A program made the position numbers and the translations under genes. Under the pieces are notes generated by a model. It ran no database searches. It worked only from the letters and a program-made list of their open reading frames with translations, and had not been told where the DNA came from. From contig JAKMFX010000015.1 of NCBI GenBank assembly GCA_022425195.1, positions 1-52,303 of the forward strand: a stretch of DNA of 52,303 nt. The letters are read 5' to 3'. Source of the stretch: Flavobacteriales bacterium. Lineage in GTDB: Bacteria > Bacteroidota > Bacteroidia > Flavobacteriales > UBA7430. This document shows, in pieces, positions 24,998 to 47,301 of the stretch. Within the stretch, counting starts at the first letter, position 1; the number at the start of each line of letters is the position of its first letter.

Positions 24998-26269
24998 ATG
25001 ATTAATGAAGCTTTTCTGCAGTTCATCTGGAAATTCCAGCTGTTTAATTTCTCAAGCCTAAAATGTTCAGAGGGGCTCCCCTTACTCATTTTACATCGTG
25101 GGGTTCACAATCACAATTCAGGTCCGGATTTTCTTAATGTAAAACTTCGTGTTAATCAGATGCTTTGGAATGGTGATGTGGAGGTTCATGTGAAAAGTTC
25201 GGATTGGATTGCTCATAAGCATTCGGGTAATCATCAATATGATGCGGTGATTTTACATGTGGTCTATGAAGAAGATGTCCAGCTAAATCAAGTTGATGGT
25301 GTCCCGTCATTCTGTTTGGTTTTGAAAGGTTTGATTCCCGAGAAGTATCTGAATGGTTATGATACGCTTTATCATTCCTACAGTGAGATTCCTTGTTCTT
25401 ATGCACTTTCGGATCTGGATTCTTTTTTTTGGAATTCCTACACAGAGCGTTTGCTCGTCGAGCGTATGGAATACAAACAAAGTCAAGTTGAGCCAATTTT
25501 CATTGCATCAAATAAGGATTATCAAGAGTGCTTTTATCGCCTGTTGGCAAGTAGCTTGGGTTTAAAGATTAATAAAGAATCTATGCTGAGATTGGCCGAA
25601 GCAACTCCTTTGCTCATGCTTCAAAGGTAGCGCCCTGATCGATTAAATATTGAGGCACTCTTATATGGTCAGAGCGGCCTGTTGTTTAAGGAGTTTAAGG
25701 ATGATTATCCCAAAAAGCTACGAAGGGTGTATCTATTTTACAAAGGGAAATATAAGTTAGAAGCTTTAAAGCATCAACAGTGGAATTTTTTTAGACTTCG
25801 CCCCAATTCATTTCCTACACTTCGCATTTCTTATTTGGCTGATTTTGTCTTAAAATCAGCATCTATTTTTGATGCACTTTTTCAGTACAAAGACCTGAAA
25901 AGTCTTCTTCCTTTTTTTAATTTGGACTTGTCGTCTTATTGGGAGTTCCATTATTTGTTTGATAAAAAGTCTAAAATAAGAAGTCTCCATTTGGGGGATG
26001 CTACACGAAATTCCATCATCATAAATGCAATATTACCTTTTTGTTTTTTTTATGCAAAACAGCACTCTAATGAGTCAATGATGATGCGCGTACTTGAAAC
26101 GTTTAAGGATTTAAAATGTGAAAAGAACAAAATAGTTCGTAGCTTTATAGAGGTAGGGGTGAAAGGACGTTCGGCAATGACGTCTCAAGGCTTAATTCAT
26201 TTGTATCAGAATTATTGCATTCCCAGAAATTGTTTAAATTGCAGGGTGTTGAATCAAATACTAAAGTGA
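24998..26269 (+). pseudogene. DUF2851 family gene interrupted by one in-frame TAG
   Basis: Reading from the ATG at 24998 gives 210 residues starting MINEAFLQFIWKFQLFN and ending TPLLMLQR at a TAG (25628-25630). The same frame continues without a shift as RPDRLNIEALLYGQSGLL to a TAA at 26267-26269, ending YCIPRNCLNCRVLNQILK, the normal end of DUF2851 proteins. Together about 422 codons plus stop, the usual family length. The first part carries RGVHNHNSGPDFLNVKL and WNGDVEVHVKSSDW, the family core. CAG to TAG is a single change, so this may be a recent nonsense mutation, a polymorphism, a read error, or readthrough. Function of the family is unknown. A PspC gene follows 2 bases later, as in relatives. 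Confidence 0.82.
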
Positions 26270-26271
26270 AT

Positions 26272-26493
26272 ATGTATTCTTGGTTTCGAAATACAGTCGA
26301 AAAACAAGCCTTTGGAGTTTGTTCAGACTTGGCGGACTTTTTAAATATGAGAGCCTCATCTGTTAGGTTGTTTTTTATATATAGTTCTTTTCTGACCTTA
26401 GGGTCTCCCTTACTCGTTTATTTGATTATGATTTTTGTCTTTAGATTGAAAAATCTTGTGAATTCAAAAAGAACTTCAGTATTCGATTTTTAA
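26272..26493 (+). CDS. PspC domain small membrane protein
   Basis: A 73-residue protein starting MYSWFRNTVEKQAFGVCSDLADFLNMRASSVRLFF, the PspC pattern of a short cytoplasmic segment followed by a hydrophobic hairpin (about 35-60). It is likely an inner-membrane protein; PspC domains take part in envelope stress responses in other bacteria. I used the ATG at 26272 rather than the one at 26215, because the longer form only adds residues that overlap the end of the DUF2851 gene and lack family similarity. It begins 2 bases after that gene and is probably co-expressed with it. Confidence 0.78.
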   Translation: MYSWFRNTVEKQAFGVCSDLADFLNMRASSVRLFFIYSSFLTLGSPLLVYLIMIFVFRLKNLVNSKRTSVFDF

Positions 26494-46486: not shown

Positions 46487-47131
46487 CTACTTTAATTTGA
46501 ACAATGTTTTTCTTCCGAATTTTTTGCAGATAGGGCACGTCTCGGGGTTATGACCTCTTGCCGGACAATGTTCTCTTCCAAAAAATATGATTTGTAAATG
46601 CAATTTGTTCCAGAGCTCTGCAGGGTACAAACGCTTTAGGTCTTTTTCTGTTTGATCTACATTTTTACCATTGGTTAATTTCCATCGGTATGCCAATCGG
46701 TGTATGTGAGTGTCTACGGGAAAAGCGGGGACTCCAAATGCTTGTGCCATCACTACAGAGGCTGTTTTATGACCCACGCCAGGAAGTTCCTCTAAAAATT
46801 CAAAACTGACGGGTACCTCCCCCTTATGTTGATGGATAAGTATTTCAGACAATTCAAATATTGCTTTTGATTTTCTTGGAGAAAGCCCACAGGGTCTGAT
46901 GATGTTTCTTATTTCTTCAACGCTTAACTTAACCATATCATAGGGGTTGTCCGCTTTTGAAAAAAGTAGGGGAGTTACGGTGTTTACTCTGGCATCTGTA
47001 CATTGAGCAGAAAGTAATACTGCGATGAGTAAGGTATAGGGATCTTTATGATCTAACGGAACAGGTGTTTCAGGGTAAAGTTTTTCTAAAATGGTGGAAA
47101 TTTCCTGTGCCTTGGCTTTTTTTTGACTCAT
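46487..47131 (-). CDS. nth: Endonuclease III, with an incomplete iron-sulfur motif
   Basis: A DNA glycosylase/AP lyase of the HhH-GPD family that removes oxidised pyrimidines. LEELPGVGHKTASVVMAQAFGVPAFPVDTHIHRLAYRW holds the HhH, the catalytic Lys and the Asp. I chose the second Met at 47131 (MSQKKAKAQEIS), because homologues start there; the ATG at 47149 would add six residues. The usual Cys-x6-Cys-x2-Cys-x5-Cys cluster is altered: here CPARGHNPETCPIC has spacing x9 and x2 and no fourth Cys follows in KKFGRKTLFKLK. So the 4Fe-4S cluster is probably absent or modified, as in some other Bacteroidota. Monocistronic. Confidence 0.92.
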   Translation of the reverse strand: MSQKKAKAQEISTILEKLYPETPVPLDHKDPYTLLIAVLLSAQCTDARVNTVTPLLFSKADNPYDMVKLSVEEIRNIIRPCGLSPRKSKAIFELSEILIHQHKGEVPVSFEFLEELPGVGHKTASVVMAQAFGVPAFPVDTHIHRLAYRWKLTNGKNVDQTEKDLKRLYPAELWNKLHLQIIFFGREHCPARGHNPETCPICKKFGRKTLFKLK

Positions 47132-47301
47132 GATTTGTGCTTTTCCCATTTATAAGTACGAATATACCTTGTTTTATGCTATCGTACTAGAGAAGTAGAA
47201 CGAGTATATTTGTGTCAATGAAATAATTGTTTCACTTTGACGATTAACCCGTAGTGTTTTGAAGACCAGGAGAAGGATTCTAGAGCCTTGTTAAGGGATA
47301 G

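Follow-up and report, generated by a model that had tools for sequence, protein, structure and literature searches.

A recent pseudogene is recognized by a disabling mutation in a gene that relatives carry intact in the same place, and such pseudogenes are found in reducing genomes. The gene analyzed here belongs to DUF2851 (PF11013), a family for which the literature searched contained one incidental mention. The described protein closest to its predicted C-terminal fold is AGOG, an archaeal 8-oxoguanine DNA glycosylase of the HhH-GPD type, and in Pab-AGOG the catalytic residues are K142 and D174 (PMC9638937).

We analyzed a window of 52,303 nucleotides, that is, the whole stretch of DNA under study, which is contig C24 in the genome of an uncultured Flavobacteriales bacterium (G000; 1.77 Mb in 48 contigs, 99% complete). 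Read directly from the sequence, the codon at 25628-25630 (+) is an in-frame TAG, codon 211 of a 423-codon DUF2851 gene at 24998-26269. The reading frame runs from the ATG at 24998 to the TGA at 26267-26269 and is open apart from this codon. The parts of the locus are as follows:

24998..25627, + strand: DUF2851 before the stop, residues 1-210, matching PF11013 positions 1-206 (E 5.4e-67)
25628..25630, + strand: the in-frame TAG, codon 211, where family relatives have CAT or CAC
25631..26269, + strand: DUF2851 beyond the TAG, residues 212-423 plus the gene's own TGA, matching PF11013 positions 212-375 (E 1.1e-47)
26272..26493, + strand: an intact PspC-like gene (TIGR02978, E 4.7e-8, below the curated cut-off of that model), starting 2 bases past the end of DUF2851

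The two halves (210 and 212 amino acids) each matched PF11013 alone, and the read-through product matched positions 1-375 with an E value of 7.2e-122 and 406 bits (gathering cut-off 25), with one TAG inside. Neither half had lost any of the residues that are invariant across 25 aligned family members, C407, C412, and C415 among them. The earlier note had described one gene split by a single in-frame TAG, of normal family length, with both conserved ends and no further damage. This description was confirmed by the separate matches of the halves, by the otherwise open frame, and by the presence of intact homologs of equal length and the same gene order in the same genus and family. Within the window, this was the only pair of long same-frame ORFs parted by a stop other than a gene boundary. 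The exact TAG site was searched for in IMG/VR contigs and was not found there.

The gene order cinA, rpmB, DUF2851, PspC-like, rmlD, alanine symporter was conserved in the sister genome G002. DUF2851 of G002, which is of the same genus, was intact and 78% identical to the G000 copy, and the PspC-like genes were 93% identical. The G000 gene thus bears a disabling mutation while its relatives carry an intact DUF2851 in the same place, as is found for a recent pseudogene.

An AF2 model of the read-through protein, built with seven sequences, placed an alpha-beta domain at the N terminus and a helical domain at the C terminus. The features assigned to the predicted protein are these:

24998..25342, + strand: predicted alpha-beta domain, residues 1-115, PD-(D/E)XK-like, with invariant E4, D44, E62, and H64 (low-confidence part of the AF2 model, weak structural matches)
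25409..26266, + strand: predicted all-helical domain with an HhH-GPD DNA glycosylase fold, residues 138-423, containing the TAG (AF2 model, matches to AGOG)
25781..25825, + strand: conserved R-P-x-x-F-P-x-x-R loop, residues 262-276, with P269 and R276 invariant and R268, F272, and P273 nearly invariant in 25 sequences
26216..26242, + strand: C407-x4-C412-x2-C415, invariant in 25 sequences

When VIA-align was run on Foldseek candidates, the N-terminal part of this model matched EndoMS (Z 3.9), Bax1 (2.5), and DrdV (2.1), all of them PD-(D/E)XK nucleases. These matches are weak and were made on a low-confidence part of the model, and the TBP-interacting protein TIP26 was also among the matches at Z 2.1-3.9. 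The residues invariant in 25 family sequences include E4, D44, E62, H64, H73, H75, and H87. As modelled, the N-terminal domain of DUF2851 weakly resembles PD-(D/E)XK nucleases.

Residues 138-423 modelled alone with AF2 gave a pLDDT of 85.7 and a pTM of 0.86. VIA-align, which was run on Foldseek candidates, matched this model to Tga-AGOG at Z 11.0 (rmsd 3.7, 206 of 248 residues aligned), a value below the caution level of the tool, as helical proteins can reach Z 13 by a common arrangement. The structures 1xg7 (Z 10.8) and Pab-AGOG (Z 10.6) aligned over about 205 residues, the next rows were Thermotoga Ogg, MUTYH, NTHL1, MutY, endonuclease III, and MagIII at Z 4-6, and unrelated terpene synthases reached about Z 3. 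HhH-GPD enzymes made up nearly all of the first 25 rows. It is this predominance of one superfamily, together with coverage of the full domain, on which the HhH-GPD reading rests, suggesting that the C-terminal domain of DUF2851 may share the HhH-GPD DNA glycosylase fold. Foldseek itself gave no significant match for either model (the read-through protein or residues 138-423), a sequence search of the PDB with the family profile returned no DUF2851 relative, and in a profile comparison the C-terminal domain did not match Nth or MutY from this order.

The R-P-x-x-F-P-x-x-R loop could correspond to the helix-hairpin-helix. C133 (25394-25396) was also invariant in the 25 sequences, and it may possibly form a four-cysteine metal site with C407, C412, and C415. 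In the 25 sequences, residues 262-318 contained no invariant Lys or Asp. Because K142 and D174 of AGOG have no obvious invariant counterpart in DUF2851, we do not claim glycosylase catalysis. On the HhH-GPD reading, the glycosylase-like domain would be largely cut off by the stop, along with all of the four cysteines except C133. Elsewhere in the window, an endonuclease III-like HhH-GPD gene lies at 46487-47149 (-); together with a MutY-like gene on contig C37, it shows that the genome keeps canonical HhH-GPD glycosylases.

We then compared codon 211 among relatives. His is encoded at this site in all five family relatives whose sequences align over it (CAT in L013, L012, and L028, CAC in L008 and L029), and the TAG is therefore at least two base changes from the shared state. 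Across the order the residue at this position was variable (His, Leu, Tyr, Glu, Ile, and others), and none of the aligned relatives has a stop there. A CAG to TAG change, which the earlier note had offered as the simplest cause, did not agree with these His codons; judging from the alignment, it could have occurred only after at least one earlier change.

To gauge the age of the stop, we took G001 as the outgroup and counted the amino-acid changes specific to the G000 or the G002 lineage. The G000:G002 counts were 11:11 in the N-terminal half and 17:12 in the C-terminal half, compared with 195:159 in the neighboring genes (189:153 with rpmB left out, its row having been read one base out of frame and being disregarded, which leads to the same conclusion). 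There was no excess after the stop relative to the neighbors (Fisher p = 1.0). The dN/dS ratios between G000 and G002 were 0.10 and 0.19 for the N- and C-terminal halves, respectively, showing that purifying selection acted on DUF2851 during most of the period after the two lineages split. Because neither half changed faster than in the sister species, the stop is either recent or an assembly error. Relaxed selection is not apparent from the counts; they would come out alike for a very young lesion, and such rate data do not distinguish a sequence error from a young nonsense mutation. Both a very recent mutation and a sequence error, which had been proposed as alternatives, thus stay compatible with the rates. 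As there is no excess of changes after the stop, only the stop itself points to loss of function.

Next, we compared the gene among 61 related genomes, one per species. DUF2851 was intact in 21 of the 22 genomes of at least 2.5 Mb, whereas of the 39 smaller genomes 4 had an intact copy (one of these being divided between contig ends), 6 a broken one, and 29 none. The association with genome size gave p = 2.9e-4 for broken vs. intact copies and p = 8e-8 for present vs. absent, in statistics that ignore shared ancestry and bin completeness. Assembly quality is also confounded with genome size here, because some of the small genomes with a broken copy are draft bins. A broader sample of 148 genomes gave the same size pattern. 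The broken copies were those of G000, G010, G019, G032, and G034, together with a remnant in G051. The G010 copy (L029/L093) bears frameshifts and stops, that of G034 (L097) several frameshifts, and those of G019 (L096) and G032 (L095) one frameshift each, and the genes adjoining broken copies aligned in one piece. G019, G032, and G034 have a frameshift zone in common at about codons 305-333. Programmed frameshifting was considered for these three and rejected: the junctions share no sequence and most relatives need no frameshift, and for these reasons we regard the frameshifts as separate lesions. Taken together, these sequence comparisons indicate that DUF2851 is repeatedly lost or broken in small-genome relatives.

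We propose, with a probability of roughly 0.62, that the TAG is a recent loss-of-function (nonsense) allele of DUF2851 in a small-genome Flavobacteriales lineage. Translation would start at 24998 and end at the TAG, giving a 210-residue fragment in which the N-terminal domain would be followed by just the opening helices of the C-terminal one. A new start downstream would be unlikely to restore the rest of the protein, because the first in-frame ATG after the TAG is at 26078 (codon 361), 150 codons further on; the earlier in-frame starts, from 25682 on, are only TTG or GTG and lie inside conserved sequence. The allele is presumably fixed and the fragment inactive. The stop would then be an early step of gene decay, and it is best read in this way because small-genome relatives repeatedly broke or lost the same gene.

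Alternatively, the population may carry an intact gene, and the stop would then be a sequencing, assembly, or consensus error or come from a minority strain within the metagenome bin. We consider this unlikely, though it deserves serious weight: the genome is a 48-contig draft, the gene has no other damage, both halves are under purifying selection without any rate excess, and the TAG, although two or more base changes away from the His codons of all comparable family relatives, has no accompanying sign of relaxed selection. However, other small Flavobacteriales genomes also carry a broken DUF2851. Furthermore, no other nonsense codon inside a family was found among the candidates of a 447-kb sample, so that the assembly error rate looks low. 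A gene that now makes two working pieces, a stand-alone N-terminal domain and a C-terminal part made by re-initiation, is highly improbable. The predicted N-terminal domain (residues 1-115) does lie wholly before the stop, but the TAG, instead of separating the two domains, interrupts the predicted helical one after helix 205-209 and before helix 215-225, and the distant ATG and the TTG and GTG starts mentioned above also argue against it.

That the TAG is partly read through by near-cognate suppression, with full-length protein still made, would fit the conservation of the C-terminal half, in which every family-invariant residue is kept, and the variability of residue 211, at which an inserted amino acid could be tolerated. 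Nevertheless, we judge this improbable. RF1 is present in the genome above its curated cut-off, and 61 of the 288 ORFs of at least 200 codons (21%) in the 447-kb sample, about a quarter of the genome, end in TAG. The amber suppressor tRNA suggested by the earlier note did not appear: none of the 35 tRNA matches found in the genome had a CUA anticodon when read with ARAGORN (one, cut by a contig end, was read by eye and has TTT). Some tRNA genes must be unassembled, because no tRNA-Ala or tRNA-Ile was seen among the 35. Two tRNA-Gln genes on contig C37 (L064, 8568-8641 and 10247-10320, -), 1.6 kb apart, both have the anticodon TTG, and the first scores much lower than the second (48 vs. 61 bits). 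Split-gene candidates in the sample were picked by length, competing ORFs, and Pfam, as a codon-usage scan was too weak and missed even the DUF2851 gene. Ten candidate same-frame stops, four of them TAG, were read through and scanned with Pfam; none was inside a domain, each being the end of one gene beside another gene or beside non-family sequence. Because none of these stops is crossed by a domain, there is no general suppression of stops in this genome, and no relative has a stop at codon 211. On these grounds neither stop codon reassignment or a suppressor nor readthrough as raised in the earlier note was supported. The stop itself is most likely ordinary: a recent nonsense mutation, or else an error of assembly, hitting a gene that is lost again and again among relatives with small genomes.

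What could matter is less the stop than the family it hits, a Bacteroidota protein family without an assigned function: its predicted structure suggests a role in DNA processing, and its loss goes along with small genome size. From the models, DUF2851 may be an uncharacterised DNA-repair protein. We tentatively suggest, as an idea somewhat short of even odds, that it combines a PD-(D/E)XK-like nuclease, an AGOG-like HhH-GPD domain, and a four-cysteine metal site, that it is standard in large-genome Flavobacteriales and repeatedly lost in genome reduction, and that the window captures the first step of that loss. If so, genome reduction in these bacteria would be linked to the loss of an undescribed repair enzyme.

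Compared with recent pseudogenes in reducing genomes, the locus is alike in having a single stop in an otherwise intact, dispensable gene that is also decayed or missing in related small genomes; it differs in that the putative loss event in G000 shows a single lesion without any acceleration of rate. As a member of DUF2851, the gene matches all 375 positions of the PF11013 model with its invariant residues kept, and differs by the in-frame stop at codon 211. The likeness to AGOG lies in the predicted fold of residues 138-423 (Z 11.0), whereas the identity in the structural alignment is 6-9% and the catalytic lysine and aspartate of AGOG have no clear counterpart. PD-(D/E)XK nucleases such as EndoMS/NucS differ from DUF2851, which has His in place of the usual Lys and whose matches to them reach just Z 2.1-3.9 in a region modelled with low confidence; they resemble it in the predicted order of helix, three strands, helix, and strand in residues 4-91 and in the invariant D44 and E62-x-H64.
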